From a virus: a DNA stretch of 20,929 nt. Location: positions 1 to 20,929 of IMG/VR virus record IMGVR_UViG_3300000882_000096; one strand, written 5' to 3'. Below are positions 2,781-20,548 of this stretch, in pieces. How positions within the stretch are numbered: the first letter of the stretch is position 1; every line of letters begins with the position of its first letter. A program made the position numbers and the translations under genes. A model generated the notes under the pieces. It was not told the origin of the DNA. It made no database searches and saw only the letters and a program-made list of their open reading frames with translations.

Positions 2781-3410
2781 ATGTGTAATATTTGTGGTGC
2801 ACCTTCTTTAGAAAAAGCTCATCAACTTTATACAGAAGGTTTAGATCGAGGGTCTTTTGCTTCTGGTTGTTTGGTATTTACTCAAAATCATTTTCACGTT
2901 TCTAAACAGGAAGCTCCTTTTACTTTAGAAGGATTAAAAGAAGAATTAAAATCTTTAGAAGAATTTCCAATATACTATTTGTTTCATTCTCGGGCTCCAA
3001 CTAATTCTAAAGATCCTTCTTTTAATTACTGTACTACACACCCGTTTAATTTCGGTTTCCACTTTGTAGCTCATAATGGTATTATACAAAACTTCACAGA
3101 CTTTAACGGCCATCAAGAATTTAATGTAGATTCTTCTATTATACCTTATCACCTCTCAGTTAACGGAGGCGACATAGTTAAAGCTTATTCTAAATATAAA
3201 GGTCTATTAACATCTTGGATATATGACACAGAAAAACTTTATGTAGTAAAGGCTGGATCTTCTTTACATATGGATCAGGATTCTTTTAGTTCTATGGCAT
3301 TTGAAGGATCAAATCAAATAGAAGAAGATGGTATCATTTATGAATTTACTGGTTTAAATTTTAAACAAATAGGAACGTTTCCTTATAACAATCCTTACTT
3401 TCTTTTATGA
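2781..3410 (+). CDS. Class II glutamine amidotransferase partner of QueC (GAT)
   Basis: An Ntn-hydrolase glutaminase domain of 209 residues. The start is set at ATG 2781 rather than an upstream frame-open ATG at 2766, because it gives MCNICGA: Met removal exposes the nucleophilic Cys2 at the N-terminus, which this family requires. Other GATase II hallmarks are present: HSRAPTN at residues 69-75, THPF at 86-89, HNGIIQNF at 98-105 and VDSS at 116-119, aligning with GlmS HTRW, HNGI and the TDSE region. There is no synthetase domain on the same chain. In several phages a GAT domain is fused to QueC; here the two are adjacent genes 4 nt apart. The likely role is to release ammonia from glutamine for QueC-type amidation of a deazaguanine. 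Confidence 0.85.
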   Translation: MCNICGAPSLEKAHQLYTEGLDRGSFASGCLVFTQNHFHVSKQEAPFTLEGLKEELKSLEEFPIYYLFHSRAPTNSKDPSFNYCTTHPFNFGFHFVAHNGIIQNFTDFNGHQEFNVDSSIIPYHLSVNGGDIVKAYSKYKGLLTSWIYDTEKLYVVKAGSSLHMDQDSFSSMAFEGSNQIEEDGIIYEFTGLNFKQIGTFPYNNPYFLL

Positions 3411-4087
3411 ACAATAAACTATTAATTGTAGTATGCACTCAAGCCAAAACAGACGTAGAATTTGAACAGAAACAAATTTTTTTAAGTCTTAAAAAACAAT
3501 GTGAAACCAACTCCAATATTGATTTTCATATATTCAAAGATAATAAAAGAGGGTTAGGATTATGTTACAATGAAATTCTTAAAGACCCCAACCATATAGA
3601 TAAAACTGTTTTATTTGTTCATGATGATGTAGTCTTAGAAGATATATTTCTTTATGAGAAGTTAATGTTTAGTCCTTATTCTATTACAGGATTGGCTGGT
3701 ACTAAATCTTTTAACAAGAAAGTAGATAAGATGGCTTGGCACCTAGCTTCTAACGGAAGAGAAGATTTTGTAGGGGAAGTAGCTCATGTCAATAAAGACA
3801 ACCAAGCTTGGACTACCATATTTGGTCGGACCCAATCGAGAGCTTTGATTGTGGATGGATTGTTTATAGCTTGTAAGGTTAAAGACTTAGTGGATAACGA
3901 TCTTTGCTTTGATGAACAATTTGAATGGCATCACTATGATATGTCTTTTTGTTTGAAAGCCAATGAAAAGAAAGTTAAGGTAGGGGTTTTACCTATTAAG
4001 GTTCTTCATTATGGATTGGGCGATTCTATGTTGACCCCCGAATGGGAAGAATCAAATAAAAAATTTAAGGAGATTTATTGCAAATAA
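3407..4087 (+). CDS. Glycosyltransferase, GT2-like (GT-A fold)
   Basis: The 226-residue protein has the features of the small GT2-like family often found with HDD motifs: an N-terminal beta strand LLIVVCTQAK, VLFVHDDVVLED at residues 68-79 (the acidic pair probably binds the metal and nucleotide sugar), SITGLAGTK at 92-100, VDGLFIACK at 149-157, the acceptor-side FDEQFEWHHYDMSF at 168-181, and a late HYGLGD at 201-206. No membrane segment is present. Its ATG overlaps the amidotransferase stop (ATGA), implying translational coupling with the queC unit. The sugar donor and acceptor are unknown: the acceptor could be a modified base, a virion protein or a host surface molecule. Confidence 0.8.
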   Translation: MNNKLLIVVCTQAKTDVEFEQKQIFLSLKKQCETNSNIDFHIFKDNKRGLGLCYNEILKDPNHIDKTVLFVHDDVVLEDIFLYEKLMFSPYSITGLAGTKSFNKKVDKMAWHLASNGREDFVGEVAHVNKDNQAWTTIFGRTQSRALIVDGLFIACKVKDLVDNDLCFDEQFEWHHYDMSFCLKANEKKVKVGVLPIKVLHYGLGDSMLTPEWEESNKKFKEIYCK

Positions 4088-4093
4088 CATTTA

Positions 4094-4978
4094 TTATAAA
4101 GTTTTGAGTTTCCCTATTTCCAACCCCAATTCTTTAATTTCTTCTGGTGTTTTATAAAAATTTCTAGTTCCGTTATTACACACTTTTTTAATTATTGGTA
4201 TTACTCCCAGTGTGTATTTTAATTTTTCAATTTCTTCTGGAGTTTTTCTAAAATTTTTAATTCCGTTATTACACCATAATTTACCCCTAACAATATCCCC
4301 CATGTGTTGAATTTTTATTTTTTTTAAATTGTCTGGTAATTTTTTCCAATTATTTTTCATGGTATTAGAAGTTTTGTTTTTTATTTCATCTGTCATAATC
4401 AATCTACTCCTATATTCTTTTAATTTTTCAATATATTTTGATTTTTCTTCTTCTGAAAGATTTTGCCATTTTTGTTTGTTTAATTCGCCTATTTTTTTAT
4501 GTATTTGTTTTCTTTTCTGTTGAGGTATTTTTGATATACCCCCTTTAACTGCTTCGCTGTTGGCTTTTTTTTGTTCATCAGTCCAATTTTGTTTCGTTCG
4601 TTTCATTTTTTGGGCTGTTTGTTTTCTTTTTAGACGTCTATTAACCTCCTGTTTTTCACGAATAATTTTTTTTTCTTCTTCTGTTTTGCCATCAGACATA
4701 AATCCGCCTCCAGCTACATTTGTTAAATTGTAAAATTTTGAGTTAGTTGCACAATTAAATTTTTCTAACCAATATCTTTCTTTTTCTAAAAGCAAATCTT
4801 TATTATCTACTATTTCAATTATCTCTTTTTTAAAATTATGTTTGCCGTATTTTTCTATTGATTTTCTTATGGCTAAACCGGAACCTAAATAACTATCATT
4901 TAATTTGCCCCAATGAGATCCTATATATTGCATGTCATTTAATTTATTTGTTGTTTTGTAAATATAATATTGTTTCAT
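4094..4978 (-). CDS. GIY-YIG homing endonuclease (Seg-like)
   Basis: Residues 1-90 form a GIY-YIG nuclease domain: YYIYKTTN at 4-11 (YIY in place of GIY), QYIGSHWG at 17-24, the catalytic Arg in AIRKSIEKYG near residue 38, and the metal-binding Glu in LLLEKERYWL near 65-67. A long lysine-rich helical linker (about 95-230) leads to two copies of a CNNG-(IKNF/TRNF)-x-KTPEEI module near 237-260 and 268-290, which resemble DNA-contacting repeats of phage-encoded homing nucleases. The gene lies on the opposite strand between plus-strand genes, ends 6 nt from the glycosyltransferase stop, and is more AT-rich than its surroundings. All this fits a mobile free-standing endonuclease. A GATAAATA late box lies 6 nt upstream. 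Confidence 0.88.
   Translation of the reverse strand: MKQYYIYKTTNKLNDMQYIGSHWGKLNDSYLGSGLAIRKSIEKYGKHNFKKEIIEIVDNKDLLLEKERYWLEKFNCATNSKFYNLTNVAGGGFMSDGKTEEEKKIIREKQEVNRRLKRKQTAQKMKRTKQNWTDEQKKANSEAVKGGISKIPQQKRKQIHKKIGELNKQKWQNLSEEEKSKYIEKLKEYRSRLIMTDEIKNKTSNTMKNNWKKLPDNLKKIKIQHMGDIVRGKLWCNNGIKNFRKTPEEIEKLKYTLGVIPIIKKVCNNGTRNFYKTPEEIKELGLEIGKLKTL
4136..4274 (-). repeat. Two imperfect 46-bp direct repeats inside the endonuclease gene
   Basis: Plus-strand segments 4136-4181 and 4229-4274 both begin AATTTCTTCTGG and end TTCCGTTATTACAC, with only scattered differences between. They encode the two C-terminal CNNG...KTPEEI modules of the GIY-YIG protein, so they record duplication of a putative DNA-binding unit. 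Confidence 0.65.
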
Positions 4979-5645: not shown

Positions 5646-6007
5646 CGATCTTTGATTATCTCAAAGATATAGTATCTACCAAGAAAGGGGATATACCTCT
5701 TGAAAATTATAATTTATTTTTAATAAACCGATGGCTCAGCTTCTTAACCCCTTCTTCTTGTTTGGCTATTAATGAATCTGTTAATTCTTTGGGTAATATA
5801 GATAAACAGATTCATTATAAACTTTTAATATCTTGTTTTCCTAAACAAAAATACATGTCTAAAATAAATTATATTAAAAAAATCAAAGTAGATAAAGAAG
5901 ATCAAAATAATAAAATTCCTATCTTAGCTAAGACTATGGAACTTTCACAAAAAGAAATACAACAAATGCTTGACTTTAACGAAACACTTAATAAATCTAA
6001 TATATGA
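5642..6007 (+). CDS. 62: Clamp loader small subunit, T4 gp62-like
   Basis: In T4, gp62 with four copies of gp44 loads the gp45 sliding clamp at primer ends. The 121-residue product follows the divergent gp62 pattern of marine T4-like phages: MTIFDYLKDIVSTKK at the start, an ENYNLFLINRWLSF block near 21-34, a CLAINESVNSL helix, then HYKLLISCFPKQKYMSKINY with aromatic and basic residues, and a C-terminal helix SQKEIQQMLDF. Its ATG overlaps the DUF366 stop (ATGA) and its stop overlaps the next ATG. No gp44 or gp45 gene is in this window. The call rests on motif pattern and size; identity with T4 gp62 itself would be low. Confidence 0.7.
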   Translation: MTIFDYLKDIVSTKKGDIPLENYNLFLINRWLSFLTPSSCLAINESVNSLGNIDKQIHYKLLISCFPKQKYMSKINYIKKIKVDKEDQNNKIPILAKTMELSQKEIQQMLDFNETLNKSNI

Positions 6008-6369
6008 TACTACCAACAGAAATTAACGGAATTGTTCCTGAAGACTATAAAGATCTACCTTTACCAGAAGATTATGAAATCACCGAGTTATTGGGTGATG
6101 TGATCATGGTCAAATATCTAGATATGGTGGATGGGGGAGTTAAAAGAAACGGTATCATTTTACCCAACCAGATTGTAGACCAACGTGCTTGGAGAGTGGG
6201 TGAAGTTGTATTGGCTGGTCCTAATTGTAAACAAGTCAAGAAAGGTTCTAAAGTTATTTTTCCTGGCGATCGTGGACTTGTTGCTATCAGACAAAAAGAA
6301 GGTATGGTCATCTTCCTTTCTGAAAATCGCATCTTTGGTATTTGTGAGGTCAAAGAAAATATTGCATGA
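6004..6369 (+). CDS. GroES-like co-chaperonin (T4 gp31 role)
   Basis: The 121-residue protein has an N-terminal extension of about 28 residues and then a GroES fold: GDVIMVKYLD at 31-40 (GroES RVIVK strand), a short mobile-loop region with GGVKRNGIILPN at 44-55, where IIL matches the hydrophobic tripeptide that binds GroEL, WRVGEVVLAGPN at 63-74 (GEV-LAVG block), VKKGSKVIFPGDRG at 78-91 (VGD-VIF block) and VIFLSENRIFGIC at 102-114 (L-SE-DILAI block). Phage co-chaperonins replace host GroES so that GroEL can enclose the phage major capsid protein. It overlaps its neighbours by 4 nt at each end and is probably made with gp62. Confidence 0.85.
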   Translation: MILPTEINGIVPEDYKDLPLPEDYEITELLGDVIMVKYLDMVDGGVKRNGIILPNQIVDQRAWRVGEVVLAGPNCKQVKKGSKVIFPGDRGLVAIRQKEGMVIFLSENRIFGICEVKENIA

Positions 6370-7144: not shown

Positions 7145-7693
7145 ATGAATACTCCTAAATTTAATGAACTTTTCGAAACTTTTCTTTGCACATTAGAAGA
7201 AAAAAAATTAAGCAATGTTAATTATATTTTTAATGACATCAAATCAGGTCAATTAGATCGCAACGAAAGAGAAAGAAGAGTTTGGGAAATTGGTTTTAAA
7301 GAAGGAGAAGGTCTTTCAAGCGGAGAACTTTTAGATCTTTTAAGCGACAGAACAGGATTAAAAGTATCTGCAATTTTAAGAATTTTAGATAGTCTTGAAA
7401 ATCAAGGAGTAGTTGAATCATCAGAAGGAGAATCCGCAGAAAAGGATTTAGAAGATATTGAAACTTCTGATGACGAAGAACTCCCTCATCCGGATTATGA
7501 AGAAGGTGAAAATCCTTTCGATACAGGTGATGATCAAGGAGAATACTACGAAAGTGTAGAGACTTTAGAAGAAGCAAAAAAACAAAAAGCAAATCCTTGG
7601 GCTATTGCTAAATCTATGGCAAAGAAAAAAGGTTATGGTACTAAAAAAGAAGAGAAGATAGTCAAAGCTATTAAAAGGGGACTCAAGAAGTAA
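7145..7693 (+). CDS. Acidic late protein with basic C-terminal tail (182 aa)
   Basis: Residues 1-90 are helical and include ELLDLLSDRTGLKVSAILRI then DSLENQGVV, which reads like a winged helix. Residues 90-140 are strongly acidic (clusters such as ETSDDEELPHPDYEEGE), and the last 35 are basic with NPWAIAKSMAKKKGYG and a KKEEKIVKAIKRGLKK tail. The NPWA-x-x-K...KKxEKIVKxIK ending is common at the C-termini of phage proteins. The late box directly upstream suggests a virion, scaffold or packaging-related role, but no specific function is recognised. Its 3' end overlaps the end of the convergent dCMP deaminase gene by 11 nt. Confidence 0.6.
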   Translation: MNTPKFNELFETFLCTLEEKKLSNVNYIFNDIKSGQLDRNERERRVWEIGFKEGEGLSSGELLDLLSDRTGLKVSAILRILDSLENQGVVESSEGESAEKDLEDIETSDDEELPHPDYEEGENPFDTGDDQGEYYESVETLEEAKKQKANPWAIAKSMAKKKGYGTKKEEKIVKAIKRGLKK

Positions 7694-8099
7694 CCTGAAT
7701 CAACTCTACACCAAAGGTTTCTGCTAAGTCTATAGTAGAAGAATCATGGTGATAAATGTCTTTGTATACTATCTTCTTAATACCATAAGAAGCTAATGAT
7801 TTTAAACAATCATTACATGGAAGTAATGTCACAGCAGCTAAATAACACTCATTAGGTTTTATATACCTTAAAGCATTTGTCTCTGAATGTACTACATATT
7901 TTCTACGTTCATCTCTATCAGACCAATCCTCTGACATACCAGAAGGAAATCCATTAAATCCCAGAGAAGCTACACTTTGATCATGACGAAGAAGGCAACA
8001 TCCTACTTTTACGTACGGGTCTTTAGATTTTAAAGAAGCGACTTCAGCTAACCTTAAAGCATATTCTTCCCAGGAGATATTAGTGAGTTTCGTATCCAT
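7683..8099 (-). CDS. dCMP deaminase
   Basis: It converts dCMP to dUMP, feeding dTMP synthesis by the ThyX encoded downstream. The zinc site is complete: H71-S-E73 (HSE rather than HAE) and PCNDC at 94-98, giving His71, Cys95 and Cys98 as ligands and Glu73 as the catalytic acid. FNGFPSGMSED at 48-58 is the family segment before the nucleotide site, and an N-terminal WEEYALRLAEVASLKSKDP helix matches T4-type enzymes. At 138 residues it is shorter than T4 Cd and lacks its extra zinc insertion. The ATG lies 20 nt inside the end of the upstream deaminase-like gene, so the two are cotranscribed. Confidence 0.88.
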   Translation of the reverse strand: MDTKLTNISWEEYALRLAEVASLKSKDPYVKVGCCLLRHDQSVASLGFNGFPSGMSEDWSDRDERRKYVVHSETNALRYIKPNECYLAAVTLLPCNDCLKSLASYGIKKIVYKDIYHHDSSTIDLAETFGVELIQVTS

Positions 8100-8499
8100 T
8101 ATCTGTAGACCAAATGATTTGTTTGAAGTTATGATATCTTAATAGAGATTGGCATGAAGAGCAAGGTTTAGCTAAGGCAATGTTATTATTACGATTGTAT
8201 CTCAAATTAATTAAAGTACACTTACGTGTATCTATATTAGTCAATCTCTTCAATTTGAGTATAGCATTTAATTCAGAACAAATTTGTTTTTGGTCTGAAT
8301 AATCTTCACCAGTAATCCTCGAAATTTTTTTATTTTTAAGATTAACTGGATGTGTCTTATTGACATTAAGACCAGTTGATATAAGACGATTCTTATAAAG
8401 AATAAAAGAAAAATGTCTACAACGATTAGCGTTATGAGTATCTAAAAGAGAAAGAGCGATGTCTTCAAGTTTTTGAAATGGTATTGTCTGTGAGATCAT
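8080..8499 (-). CDS. Cytidine deaminase-fold protein, second deaminase
   Basis: The frame is open from 8547, but the ATG at 8499 (MISQTIPFQKLED) is preferred because it reduces the overlap with the upstream gene from 83 to 35 nt. Counting from this start, the deaminase motifs are C74-S-E76 (ICSELNAI) and KPCSSCQ with C113 and C116. The first ligand is thus Cys, as in cytidine deaminases, whereas the neighbouring dCMP deaminase has His. A strand RHFSFILYKNRLISTG and the downstream HNFKQIIWSTDNG also fit the fold. The substrate is unknown: free cytidine or deoxycytidine, a modified base or RNA are possible. It lies directly upstream of the dCMP deaminase in the same minus-strand unit. Confidence 0.65.
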   Translation of the reverse strand: MISQTIPFQKLEDIALSLLDTHNANRCRHFSFILYKNRLISTGLNVNKTHPVNLKNKKISRITGEDYSDQKQICSELNAILKLKRLTNIDTRKCTLINLRYNRNNNIALAKPCSSCQSLLRYHNFKQIIWSTDNGYETH

Positions 8500-8776
8500 C
8501 AGAATGATTGTCGATAAATTTTTGTATGACATCAACGATAACTTCATTAATAGTCACATCTTTTTCTATTGACTCTTGAATAAGAAACATAAGTGTTTCT
8601 TTAGACCAATCTGACATATCCAAATCTAAAGTGGTCCACGGTTTCAGCAACACTGATCCATCTTCATTAATAACCCAATCTAGTTTGTCTCCATTTTTAA
8701 GACTCAATTTAGAAAGTTCTTCATCTGTAAATTGGATAAAGTATTCTTCACTTTTTTGTATAGTTTTAGTAAACAT
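8465..8776 (-). CDS. AbrB-like (swapped-hairpin) small phage protein
   Basis: Residues 10-46 (EEYFIQFTDEELSKLSL, then NGDKLDWVINEDGSVLLKPW) have the beta-hairpin and GD-x-L pattern of AbrB/MazE-type swapped-hairpin domains. The second half (LDMSDWSKETLMFLIQES, then DVTINEVIVDVIQKFID) is helical and recurs in T4-like phage proteins of this size. DNA binding or antitoxin-like control is possible but not shown; no toxin gene lies next to it. It is 1 nt downstream of the gene at 8778-9005 and overlaps the second deaminase. Confidence 0.6.
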   Translation of the reverse strand: MFTKTIQKSEEYFIQFTDEELSKLSLKNGDKLDWVINEDGSVLLKPWTTLDLDMSDWSKETLMFLIQESIEKDVTINEVIVDVIQKFIDNHSDDLTDNTISKT

Positions 8777-13542: not shown

Positions 13543-14286
13543 GTGAGGACTTATACTTTCAATAACGAGATATTCATCCAGATTAATGGAGTTATGAGTA
13601 TGCTCGATGATATAGTAGTAGCTCGTAGAAAGAGAACTAATTTTGGTGAAGCTGTTGATTGGTTAAAAGTTCGTTTCGTTTATTCCCCTAAGCAGCGAGT
13701 TCTCTTGGATCTTTTAGACAAAGCACAAAATATACAACTTCCAGTAGTAACATTTTATCTGGGTGGTATTAATAGAGACTCTGCTAGGACTTGGAATAAG
13801 TTAGAAGGTTATTATGCTAAATCTTTAGACTCATCTGAAGTTAAAAAAATTCCTCAACCTAATCCAGTAGACATCACTTTAAATTGTTCCATACTCACCA
13901 AATATGCTAGTGACATGGATCAAATTATTACTAACCTGGTAGCATGGACTAATCCCCAACACATTTTAAGTTGGAGGATCCCTGGTGTTTATGATCAAGA
14001 AATTCGCAGTCCTGTTATTTGGAATGGCGCGGTCAATACTTCTTACCCAACAGATTTAAACGCAACACAAATAGCTCGATATCAAGCAGATTTAAGTTTT
14101 ACTATTAAAGGATGGATCTTTAAAGCTATTCCAAGTAAGGGAGAAGCTAAAATCTTTAAATTTAATTCAGACTTCTCTATGATTGATGAATTAACTACCA
14201 AGTATTCTTTAGATCAATTAGATCCAAATTTAACAGAGAGAACTCTTCTTTCTGCTGTTCCACAACCTCAAATTTTAATTGGCTGA
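13543..14286 (+). CDS. 15: Tail sheath stabiliser / tail completion protein, T4 gp15-like
   Basis: In T4, gp15 caps the tail tube and sheath and forms the joint to the neck. The 247-residue product shows the same order of blocks as T4 gp15: an N-terminal YTFNNEIFIQINGVMSML with DIVVARRK, VRFVYSPKQRVLLDLLD at 43-59 (T4: VPITYASKEHF), LPVVTFYLGGINRDSAR near 66-82, then NPVDITLNCSILTKYASDMD at 107-126 (T4: NPSPIKMIYELSIFTRYEDDM) followed by QIITNLVAWTNPQ, and later RYQADLSFTIKGWIFKAIP. It starts with GTG behind a late-box variant and leads a run of virion genes with very short spacing. Confidence 0.8.
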   Translation: MRTYTFNNEIFIQINGVMSMLDDIVVARRKRTNFGEAVDWLKVRFVYSPKQRVLLDLLDKAQNIQLPVVTFYLGGINRDSARTWNKLEGYYAKSLDSSEVKKIPQPNPVDITLNCSILTKYASDMDQIITNLVAWTNPQHILSWRIPGVYDQEIRSPVIWNGAVNTSYPTDLNATQIARYQADLSFTIKGWIFKAIPSKGEAKIFKFNSDFSMIDELTTKYSLDQLDPNLTERTLLSAVPQPQILIG

Positions 14287-16402: not shown

Positions 16403-17020
16403 ATGGCTAGCACCAAAGTTAAAAAATCTAATTTAGATAGTTCCGTTTTTACTGATTTGACTATTATCGGTAATATTTCAGCCACAGGTTACTTTTATGA
16501 TGCTAATGGTTTAGTTTCATCAGCTGCAGTCACAAGTCTTTCTTCGACAGTTGATGCTAATTTTGCTCTTAAATCTACTATCACCAGTCTTTCTTCGACA
16601 GTTGATGCCAATTTTGCTACAAAGTCTTCTGTTTTAAACTATTTACCATTGTCTGGCGGAACTTTGACGGGAACTGTTGACTTGTCTGCTGTTACTGAAA
16701 TTAAAGCAACTCCAACCATAAGTTTGAGTGCATTAAATTTAAATTTAACTTCTGCTGTAATGTTTCTTGTAAATCTTAATAGCAACATTACGACATTTAC
16801 TTTTACCAACGTTCCACCTTCTCCTAGGGTTTATTCGTTTGCATTGCAATTATCTGCAGATGGAACACCTAGAACTGTTGTTTGGCCAACTGGTACAAGA
16901 TGGTCTGGAGGAACTGGACCAACTCTTACGTCAACTGCTGGAAAGGTCGATACGTTTACATTCTTTACACACGATGGTGGTGTAAATTGGTTTGCAGCAA
17001 CAAGCATCCAAAATCAATAA
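16403..17020 (+). CDS. Tail fibre protein
   Basis: The 205-residue protein begins with a capsid- or baseplate-proximal segment (NLDSSVFTDLTIIGNISATG) common to marine phage fibres. It then has two copies of TSLSSTVDANFA at 44-55 and 61-72 (period 17, a probable coiled or beta-helical shaft), the fibre signature YLPLSGGTLTGTVDLSA at 80-96, and a C-terminal domain with VYSFALQLSADG, VVWPTGTRWSGGTGPTLTS and DTFTFFTHDGGVNWFA. That domain is widespread in phage fibres and structural proteins. It has its own late box and is followed by a tail assembly chaperone gene, as expected for a fibre module. Confidence 0.82.
   Translation: MASTKVKKSNLDSSVFTDLTIIGNISATGYFYDANGLVSSAAVTSLSSTVDANFALKSTITSLSSTVDANFATKSSVLNYLPLSGGTLTGTVDLSAVTEIKATPTISLSALNLNLTSAVMFLVNLNSNITTFTFTNVPPSPRVYSFALQLSADGTPRTVVWPTGTRWSGGTGPTLTSTAGKVDTFTFFTHDGGVNWFAATSIQNQ
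16530..16618 (+). repeat. Two 38-bp direct repeats, 51-bp period, in the fibre gene
   Basis: Segments 16530-16567 and 16581-16618 differ at only two bases; both contain GTCTTTCTTCGACAGTTGAT. They encode the duplicated TSLSSTVDANFA shaft unit in the same frame. Unequal exchange here could change shaft length in 17-residue steps. Confidence 0.8.
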
Positions 17021-17028
17021 AGCATTTT

Positions 17029-17036
17029 AATAAATA
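17029..17036 (+). promoter_or_regulatory. T4-type late promoter box AATAAATA
   Basis: AATAAATA ends 14 nt before the ATG at 17051 and is followed by AGGAA, one of the few Shine-Dalgarno-like sequences in the window. This leaves room for a short leader, unlike most other boxes here. Confidence 0.45.
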
Positions 17037-17050
17037 GGAACGAAAAAATT

Positions 17051-17515
17051 ATGAAAAAATACTGCTATGTTAAGAATGGAAAAATTGTTGCAGCAGAACA
17101 AGATCTGCCAGTAAATTTTGAAAATATTTCAAATTTTTATCTTTTAGGCGATGCTGACCTTAAGCGTTATGGCTGGCTTCCTTACGAAAAATTATCAGAG
17201 GATAAAGATGTTTTTGTTAGTTCTAGTTACGAAATTCTTGAAGATAAAGTAATCGAACGCTTTGTAACAAGAGATAAGACTAAACAAGAATTGCAAGCTG
17301 AAGTAGAAGAAAAAACAGCAATGCAATGGGATTCGATAAGATCTAAACGAAACATTCTCTTACAGGAGTCTGATGTATTTGTCGTTTCTGATAGATGGGA
17401 ACAAATGAGTTCCGAAACTAAAAAGGCATGGTCAGAATACAGAAAAGCATTAAGAGATCTTCCTCAAAATGTTACAAATTCTTTTGATGTAATTTGGCCA
17501 ATTCAACCGAAATAA
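17051..17515 (+). CDS. Phage tail assembly chaperone (Phage_tail_APC type)
   Basis: The 154-residue protein has an N-terminal beta segment (KYCYVKNGKIVAAEQDLP, YLLGDADLKRYGWLPYE), then a helical C-terminal domain with IRSKRNILLQESDVFVVSDR, QMSSETKKAWSEYRKALRDLPQ (helix to loop) and a final VIWPIQPK. R-x-x-LL-x-x-SD...W-x-x-YR-x-x-LRDLP is the signature of tail fibre/tail assembly chaperones encoded beside fibres. It is predicted to help fold or trimerise the adjacent fibre or tip protein and is not necessarily in the particle. It sits 30 nt after the fibre gene and 7 nt before the probable tip gene. Confidence 0.8.
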   Translation: MKKYCYVKNGKIVAAEQDLPVNFENISNFYLLGDADLKRYGWLPYEKLSEDKDVFVSSSYEILEDKVIERFVTRDKTKQELQAEVEEKTAMQWDSIRSKRNILLQESDVFVVSDRWEQMSSETKKAWSEYRKALRDLPQNVTNSFDVIWPIQPK

Positions 17516-18823: not shown

Positions 18824-18831
18824 CATAAATA
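18824..18831 (+). promoter_or_regulatory. T4-type late promoter box CATAAATA
   Basis: CATAAATA ends 15 nt before the ATG of the cupredoxin-like gene and probably serves both it and the protease gene that starts 4 nt after it. Confidence 0.55.
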
Positions 18832-18846
18832 GAATTTATATATTAT

Positions 18847-19254
18847 ATGAGTTCTATTAAAATAAATGGAAAATTAGCAATAGAAGGAAAGATTGAATTT
18901 GGTCCTCTTGGGTATCAACAAGTTTTCGTATCTCATTCTATTCCTATTACCATTACTACTTCGGGATTTAGTTACAATTTATATCAAATAGGAACTAATA
19001 ACCCTTCTCTATCTTGTTATAGAGGAACCAATTACGATTTTATTGTTAATACTTCTTCTCACCCTTTTGCTTTAAGGGCGTCTAGCGGTGATACTTCTAC
19101 TACTATAGAAGGAGCGTATAATAACAATCCTTTAAATGGAAAAGCCAATGGGGAGGTAATTATGTTTACCCCCAATGCTTCTACTCCTTCTACTTTAGTT
19201 TATCAGTGCGTATTGCACCCTTCCATGATAGGAACTATTACGATTTTAGATTAA
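18847..19254 (+). CDS. Virion-type protein with cupredoxin-like domain
   Basis: After an N-terminal segment typical of marine phage tail proteins (SIKINGKLAIEGKIEFG), residues 50-135 form a cupredoxin-like beta barrel: YRGTNYDFIVNTSSHPFALR, EVIMFTPNASTPSTLVYQC and the end VLHPSMIGTITIL. The positions that bind copper in type 1 sites are all present: His72 (SSHPF), Cys121, His124 and Met127 (YQCVLHPSM). Similar domains are frequent in structural proteins of marine phages, where metal binding has not to my knowledge been established. It forms a two-gene late unit with the serine protease that follows. Confidence 0.7.
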   Translation: MSSIKINGKLAIEGKIEFGPLGYQQVFVSHSIPITITTSGFSYNLYQIGTNNPSLSCYRGTNYDFIVNTSSHPFALRASSGDTSTTIEGAYNNNPLNGKANGEVIMFTPNASTPSTLVYQCVLHPSMIGTITILD

Positions 19255-19258
19255 TATT

Positions 19259-20548
19259 ATGAATGACGTAGAAAAAATTTTAAAATGGATTAGAGAAGTA
19301 AATATTAAATCTCTTCCTTACAATGTAGCTGGTGTTGGTTGGGGTCAAAAAGAAAAGAACGGCGAAAAAACAGGAGAATATGGGGTCATCTTTACGGTAC
19401 AAGAAAAGAAAGATTTAAGCCAACTAGCTCCTTCAGAAATTATTCCTAAAGAATTAGAACTGTTACTTCAAGAAGCTAAGATGGAAGTCTCTGAGACTAT
19501 AGTGGTTAAAACAGACGTAAAGATAGCTAAGGTTCACGAAAAAATCATTTCATATTGCCATCCAACTAGTAATACTATTAGTCCAGTTAGAGACCATAGA
19601 TCTCGCCAAAGAACCCTAATGGGGGGAATTGAGGCTATGACGGACTGGGGAAATTATGTAGGAACTTTAGGTCTTTTTGTACAAGACAAATCAGATGGTC
19701 AAATTGTAGCGCTTTCTAACAATCACGTCTTTGCTAATAGCCAAGTAGTAGCTAGTCTAGAAAACCCAAACGAACAAGGATTTACTACCACATTAAACAT
19801 CTCTGGGTATCAACCTACAGGGTATTGGAAAACTACTCCAGATCAAGACTATATAGGAAAGTGTAAAAGAGCCGTCTTAGTAGGAAATGAAGACTCTACT
19901 ATATTAGGTTATAGTAATGGAAATCCGGTTTTAGCAGAAACTTCTTGTGATGCGGCTATTTTGGAACTATCTGGTTATCAATTGATCGATTCGATTAATA
20001 GTCCTAATATTTTAAATTTTAATCCCCGAGCACCCTTTCCCTTTGCTACAGACTTAGAAATTGATTCTCTAGCTCCTGGAGGATCTCAACAAAAAGCTCC
20101 TATATTTAGAGCAGGAAGAACTCTAGGTCCTATTGGATATCCCGGAAATACTTTTAGTTGTAACTTATCGGTAGACGAATTGAATTGGGTTTTGGTGGGA
20201 ACTTATAGTGGATTTCTTTCTTATTTCTCTAATTGTTTTTATGTAAAAGGAGACGTGGCACCCGGAGCTGGGGGAGACTCTGGATCTGCTATGTTAGCTC
20301 TCTTTAATGCCAATAGTCCTACCTTATCAGCTTGGAAAGTTATTGGACTTCTCTTTGCAGGACCTTCAGATAACTCTTATACTGTTGGTTGTAGAATAAC
20401 CGAAATATCTAAAGCTCTTAATATTGGACCTTGGGATACTTTAATTCCTAGTATTAGTTCTCAAAGAAGTATTGTAAACCTTAAAAACAATTATTCACAA
20501 ACCATAACACTCTCTGGTAGAACATTCTATCAAGTAGGATATCAATAA
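19259..20548 (+). CDS. Trypsin-like serine protease (429 aa)
   Basis: A chymotrypsin-fold peptidase with a recognisable catalytic triad: His156 in VALSNNHVFAN, Asp231 in SCDAAILEL and Ser341 in APGAGGDSGSAM. About 120 residues precede the catalytic domain; they start with a KILKWIREVNIKS helix, then GVGWGQKEKNG and GEYGVIFTVQEKKDL, resembling the propeptide-like N-terminal part of similar bacterial proteins. After the catalytic domain a 45-residue tail ends in a beta strand (TITLSGRTFYQVGYQ). There is no signal peptide. Its position 4 nt after a cupredoxin-like structural gene and behind a late box points to a virion-associated or maturation protease; it is not the S77-type T4 prohead protease gp21. 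The substrate is unknown. Confidence 0.82.
   Translation: MNDVEKILKWIREVNIKSLPYNVAGVGWGQKEKNGEKTGEYGVIFTVQEKKDLSQLAPSEIIPKELELLLQEAKMEVSETIVVKTDVKIAKVHEKIISYCHPTSNTISPVRDHRSRQRTLMGGIEAMTDWGNYVGTLGLFVQDKSDGQIVALSNNHVFANSQVVASLENPNEQGFTTTLNISGYQPTGYWKTTPDQDYIGKCKRAVLVGNEDSTILGYSNGNPVLAETSCDAAILELSGYQLIDSINSPNILNFNPRAPFPFATDLEIDSLAPGGSQQKAPIFRAGRTLGPIGYPGNTFSCNLSVDELNWVLVGTYSGFLSYFSNCFYVKGDVAPGAGGDSGSAMLALFNANSPTLSAWKVIGLLFAGPSDNSYTVGCRITEISKALNIGPWDTLIPSISSQRSIVNLKNNYSQTITLSGRTFYQVGYQ

Follow-up and report, generated by a model that had tools for sequence, protein, structure and literature searches.

A predicted cupredoxin domain and a putative NAL1-like serine protease encoded side by side in the tail gene region of a T4-like phage

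The gene pair and its surroundings

The window, the whole stretch of DNA analysed here, is a viral contig of 20,929 bases (IMGVR_UViG_3300000882_000096, positions 1-20,929). Two genes follow one another on its plus strand, both as exact ORFs. The first (18847..19254) encodes a protein of 135 aa, of which approximately residues 29-135 make up a predicted cupredoxin domain; the second (19259..20548), separated from the first by an intergenic gap of 4 nt (19255..19258), encodes a putative trypsin-type serine protease of 429 aa that resembles NAL1. Within the cupredoxin gene, a position check and alignments placed the codon of His72, the first copper-type ligand, at 19060..19062, directly followed by that of Pro73, and the other ligands fall in a C-x2-H-x2-M loop at 19207..19227 (Cys121, 19207-19209; His124, 19216-19218; Met127, 19225-19227). 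The catalytic residues of the protease, assigned by alignment, are His156 (codon at 19724..19726), Asp231 (19949..19951) and Ser341 (20279..20281), the last within the motif GGDSGS.

Upstream on the same strand lie a T4-type tail sheath stabilizer gene (13543..14286) and the genes for a tail fibre protein and a tail fibre assembly protein (16403..17515), neighbours that place the pair in the tail/fibre region of a T4-like phage from water. Among phage isolates, the matches to the stabilizer came exclusively from cyanophages and uncultured marine viruses, with 23-27% identity among the matches listed, and a stabilizer gene of this type is also found upstream of the gene pair in the related contigs L038/L040, L041 and L043. 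A candidate T4-late-promoter-like sequence, CATAAATA, with one mismatch, is located at 18824 and is the sole pointer to late expression of the pair. Elsewhere, at 2051-2776, 6004-6369, 7683-8547, 3407-4087 and 4094-4978, the window carries QueC, a GroES-like Cpn10, two tandem deaminase-like genes, a glycosyltransferase-like gene and a weak GIY-YIG match.

Fold and ligands of the cupredoxin domain

Neither of the two window proteins gave a significant match when run directly against Pfam and NCBIfam, and relatives and profiles were therefore used. Scans of IMG/VR with each window protein singly likewise returned no matches, and alignments were needed to reach the relatives. The AlphaFold2 model of the cupredoxin protein, made with 71 homologues, is an all-beta sandwich with a pLDDT of at least 90 across nearly all of residues 31-135; the N-terminal 30 residues are predicted to be disordered, and the first 31 had no match among the relatives' loci retrieved. 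The predicted model has the Greek-key beta-sandwich of the cupredoxin fold. Foldseek searches with it (E 1.6e-5) led to AcoP, plastocyanin and amicyanin, and VIA-align superposed it on a cupredoxin domain of a three-domain copper nitrite reductase (Z 10.3, rmsd 2.1, 90 residues) and on rusticyanin (Z 10.2, rmsd 2.2, 93 residues). The profile of the family matched almost exclusively blue-copper proteins, the top PDB matches of the 71-sequence profile being Cu nitrite reductase (E 3e-5), amicyanin, plastocyanin, pseudoazurin and azurin.

His72, Cys121, His124 and Met127 are all present at the ligand positions of a type 1 copper domain, and in alignments they fall on the copper ligands of amicyanin and pseudoazurin. 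The C-x2-H-x2-M loop aligns with amicyanin residue for residue. The placement of His72 rests on fewer alignments: it pairs with the first His in four Pfam PF00127 proteins and in a single amicyanin variant (2gb2), but the profile sets the first His two residues off in the wild-type-like amicyanin rows. Few columns of the 71-row alignment reach 90% conservation, and all four ligands are among them. Of 94 distinct copies of the domain, some of which were retrieved with patterns containing ligand residues, 90 retain the complete H-C-H-M set; in one further copy the Met is shifted by one residue. The earlier note had proposed a cupredoxin-like protein with a full type 1 ligand set, a proposal upheld by the confident fold prediction, the PDB profile matches and this retention of the ligands. 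In our preferred reading, set out below, a single copper ion is most likely bound by the window domain in a Cys-His2-Met site. The residue that follows His72 is Pro in every aligned row (71/71). In classical blue-copper sites the first His is usually followed by Asn or Ser, whose backbone NH is bonded to the Cys sulfur, and Pro73 in their place leads us to expect an altered copper-type site.

The same proline also lends itself to an alternative, in which the domain is a metal-free beta-sandwich serving as a fibre tip or binding domain, the ligand residues are needed for folding only, and no copper is present in the virion: with an invariant Pro73, there is no backbone NH to hydrogen-bond with the Cys sulfur as in classical sites. 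Phages assemble in the cytosol, where free copper is essentially absent, which would also suit a domain without metal. A nested clade of relatives (L040, L041 and L043) bears on the question in both directions. Here the ligand set reads H-D-Y-N, with His72 kept and Asp, Tyr and Asn replacing Cys, His and Met; the protease is retained nonetheless, so the pairing does not need copper. However, the three loop ligands were lost together, and dN/dS of the domain is higher in the ligand-lost clade (0.35-0.52, against 0.10-0.20 elsewhere, from few pairs that are not independent); where the ligands are kept, these comparisons suggest, they appear to be under selection. Scattered loss of the ligands in close homologues had been named by the earlier note as an argument against its reading; loss did occur in one close clade, but in concert rather than scattered. 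Given also that all four ligands are among the few strongly conserved columns and align with known copper ligands, we regard a metal-free domain, which would be compatible with any reading of the protease, as unlikely.

The protease and its linkage to the cupredoxin gene

The best Foldseek matches of the protease model, which is of moderate confidence (pLDDT 60.8), were structures of rice NARROW LEAF 1 (E 1.4e-12), followed by trypsin-fold proteases, and the profile of the protease family matched NAL1 in the PDB (E 0.0018). The moderate model and the profile match together point to a NAL1-type fold with a chymotrypsin-like core. The triad His156/Asp231/Ser341 is invariant across seven full-length relatives (alignment A8). 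As well as matching these structures, the window protein directly matched phrog_20754 ('protease'); this was its sole PHROG match, on which ground a prohead (gp21-type) protease was rejected. Pfam NAL1_N and Nal1_C are each matched by 2 of the 14 aligned members, and by the window protein in neither case. A search of phage isolates with the window protease gave no match at E<=1e-3, and the two peptide patterns of its close subfamily found no member in the cellular genome collection. The predicted fold and the conserved residues identify the window protein as a NAL1-like, putative serine protease with a complete triad, in agreement with the earlier note, which had described a trypsin-like protease with an intact triad encoded 4 nt downstream of the cupredoxin gene.

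Two observations concern the architecture of related proteases. At L013:5080-5979 and L016:2350-3249, a NAL1-like protease starts a 664-aa frame, the remainder of which is lysozyme/SH3-type and endolysin-like by eye. Inspection by eye suggested Calx-beta-like repeats in the extensions of the L040-L043 proteases, but Pfam gave them no support and they were rejected.

Scans with the cupredoxin pair alignment and the protease pair alignment identified 11 other contigs of the same sub-clade. For the earlier note, an unlinked protease in relatives would have spoken against the pair; what we found is a protease gene directly behind a gene ending in a cupredoxin domain in all 12 contigs of the sub-clade, window included. 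The gap between the genes is -8 to +1 nt in the 11 relatives and +4 in the window, and each relative carries exactly one NAL1-like protease. Identity to the window proteins is 43-63% for the cupredoxin and 40-49% for the protease, the genes flanking the pair differ between contigs, and, in the pairs compared, purifying selection acts on both genes. The NAL1-linked cupredoxin domains form one clade with full support. The pairing of cupredoxin and protease is real and conserved.

Linkage of this kind could arise between mere neighbours, if the protease were active within the infected cell, targeting host proteins or host defence, and shared a transcript with a tail gene with no functional contact between the products. 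The partnership of the two proteins is predicted from the genes, and NAL1 of plants is an intracellular protease. The distances of the partners correlate (Mantel r 0.84), mostly via clades. Between L040 and L041, the cupredoxins are similar (dS 0.12) and the proteases more diverged (dS 0.56), an unequal divergence which indicates that partners recombine and which fits neighbours without contact. Such an arrangement would nevertheless have to persist in every contig of the sub-clade at 41-63% identity despite differing flanks, with genes that overlap or nearly do so and that are located in tail gene regions, and we consider it quite improbable.

In the relatives, the cupredoxin domain caps the C-terminus of proteins of 480-1074 aa, whose linkers are rich in Thr and Pro and whose central domains change from one protein to the next, while the window copy is a bare domain without the fibre-like part. 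We rejected a role as a phage electron carrier, in the manner of a plastocyanin in photosynthesis, because in relatives the domain is one part of large fibre-like proteins. The main rival to a module acting at the virion surface is maturation of the fibre, in which the protease would cut the cupredoxin-bearing protein during assembly, for example in the Thr/Pro-rich linkers or beside the C-terminal domain. The protease gene stands strictly behind that of its presumptive client, with coupled start codons, like the gene of a dedicated assembly factor; in L029, a single protease lies behind two tandem cupredoxin proteins; and the constant part of the partner is the C-terminal domain, while the central domains vary. 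However, the bare domain in the window offers no fibre to trim, and in the independent subtilisin case protease and domain share one chain. Most cupredoxin-bearing phages lack the NAL1-like protease, so the domain has uses without it, and most cupredoxin proteins would have to manage without such processing. Maturation is thus an explanation that we hold possible but somewhat unlikely.

The paired loci contain further domains. RCC1-type beta-propeller repeats occur within cupredoxin-capped fibre-like proteins (L029:4405-6948 and L032:1985-4339). The gene directly behind the protease at L031:5649-6659 matches Pfam LCIB_C_CA (beta-carbonic-anhydrase-like, E 2e-26), and its product has an N-terminus of the MPNVPxF type that is shared with cupredoxin fibre proteins, with a similar start at L030:5656-6660 and L032:5648-6022; it is possibly a carbonic anhydrase displayed on the virion. 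The 157-kb contig of L031 (G002) encodes a second cupredoxin domain at 31605-31916, situated within a Thr/Pro-rich region and with no NAL1-like protease adjoining.

Spread of the domain and comparison with known systems

The cupredoxin domain was found in 220 phage isolate records, all of cyanophages or marine viruses, and in at least 583 IMG/VR stretches. It occurs in proteins of the tail fibre and baseplate and, judged by fold, in some from giant viruses too. A cupredoxin domain on tail proteins is common in aquatic phages and is not peculiar to the window locus; the earlier note had called the pairing unusual, and whilst the pair proved to be conserved, its cupredoxin half is no rarity. PHROGs labels for families with the domain are just 'connector' or 'unknown function', and a literature search with most subscription journals outside it returned no paper that describes a cupredoxin on phage tails or its pairing with a protease. 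In cellular genomes, a by-eye count found the Cys-His-Met loop in 31 of 31 strong copies, which were retrieved with patterns omitting that loop. The cellular copies are often C-terminal in Bacteroidota proteins, some with lipoprotein-like starts. Bacteroidota proteins that end in the domain and keep all ligands include L129:2495-4327 (Marivirga sericea), L127, L132, L134 and L136.

For evidence from virions, phage S-CREM2 was unusable because no cupredoxin domain was found there, although its virion proteome is published. Synechococcus phage S-SZBM1 was usable: its one copy of the domain is C-terminal in S-SZBM1_206 and has all four ligands, and this protein was detected by mass spectrometry in CsCl-purified virions, with 9 peptides and 24.9% coverage (PMC9146016). 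The description of the window product as a virion protein in the earlier note therefore holds at the level of homologues only.

The domain is also joined to a second kind of protease. Synechococcus phages ACG-2014e and ACG-2014h encode a subtilisin (Pfam Peptidase_S8) and the cupredoxin domain in a single open frame, and phrog_9158, of 'unknown function', matches a protein of this kind along its full length. Peptidase_S8 was present in 26 of 54 cupredoxin-bearing viral ORFs, a proportion inflated because the query came from a Peptidase_S8-cupredoxin ORF. Subtilisins with a C-terminal cupredoxin are widespread in cyanophages and marine viral contigs (L044:644-2821, L157, L158 and INPHARED H77-H94). 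None of the 80 domains in the subtilisin-fusion search set has a NAL1-like protease within 2.5 kb. Two unrelated protease folds have thus been joined independently to the same domain, and the fused form favours an enzyme carried on the appendage over a separate processor.

The predicted folds, the conservation of ligands and triad, the gene linkage and the homologue in cyanophage virions are the evidence for a model in which the pair is a tail-appendage module, with a cupredoxin tip domain and a protease working with it at the virion surface. The module would sit in a tail fibre or baseplate appendage and would take up its copper from copper-bearing water or in the cell envelope, the host cytosol being poor in copper. 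The NAL1-like protease, predicted to be translationally coupled to the cupredoxin gene, may bind the cupredoxin end of the appendage and cut protein there; its substrate would most likely be a host surface protein, cut during adsorption. Copper, if the site is occupied, could stabilise the tip or help to anchor it. This is our preferred reading, held tentatively and at a little below an even chance, and it is weakened because one paired clade lost three ligands, most cupredoxin phages lack the protease and partners recombine. A wider proposition, that aquatic tailed phages widely bear true type 1 copper sites on tail appendages, repeatedly paired with virion-borne serine proteases (the NAL1-like type as a coupled gene, subtilisin as a fusion), would make the pair a copper-bearing adsorption module that acquires its metal outside the host cell and requires it to infect or to contact the host; it seems to us rather doubtful.

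That very common aquatic phages bear a full set of copper ligands on their tail proteins has consequences worth stating. If the domain binds copper, phage particles carry the metal, and infection could hinge on trace amounts of it. That the domain has repeatedly been joined to serine proteases of two unrelated kinds suggests an undescribed way to attack proteins of the host surface or to mature fibres.

Taken singly, the components (cupredoxins, NAL1-like proteases, phage fibre domains) are of known kinds. The window domain shares with amicyanin, pseudoazurin and plastocyanin (PF00127) the cupredoxin fold and the His-Cys-His-Met set, and with amicyanin the C-x2-H-x2-M loop. It differs in having Pro where they have Asn or Ser after the first His; it is also of a type encoded by phages in tail proteins, with no signal peptide or redox partner seen, and its copper is predicted. 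Closer at hand is the baseplate wedge/tail fibre connector of cyanophages (phrog_677, gp9-type), which has a homologous C-terminal domain with the same four ligands and one bearer in purified virions. The window protein matches the last 84 positions only (E 8.4e-16, profile positions 327-410 of 412), and is not filed as gp9 because the N-terminal gp9 body is absent; unlike the window, cyanophages with phrog_677 have no NAL1-like protease next door. In phrog_9158, the same domain is joined to a serine protease, but the protease fold is unrelated and the two form one fused chain, whereas the window has a neighbouring gene. Rice NAL1 and its bacterial and phage relatives (phrog_20754) share the predicted fold and the His/Asp/Ser triad with the window protease, although identity to rice NAL1 is only ~15% in structural alignment, the phage gene is coupled to a cupredoxin gene, and the paired set has a C-terminal tail of the TLSGRxxxQ/VxG type.

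The nearest described parallel lies in the iron-binding HxH motifs on tail fibres of T4 (gp37) and of Alteromonas phage R22Y (PMC11705849). There too, metal-ligand residues are carried on tail appendages, marine phages included, but as histidine iron sites in intertwined fibres, with neither a cupredoxin copper site nor a protease. If infection depended on copper, this would parallel the Trojan-horse idea proposed for iron, and the parallel could be tested.
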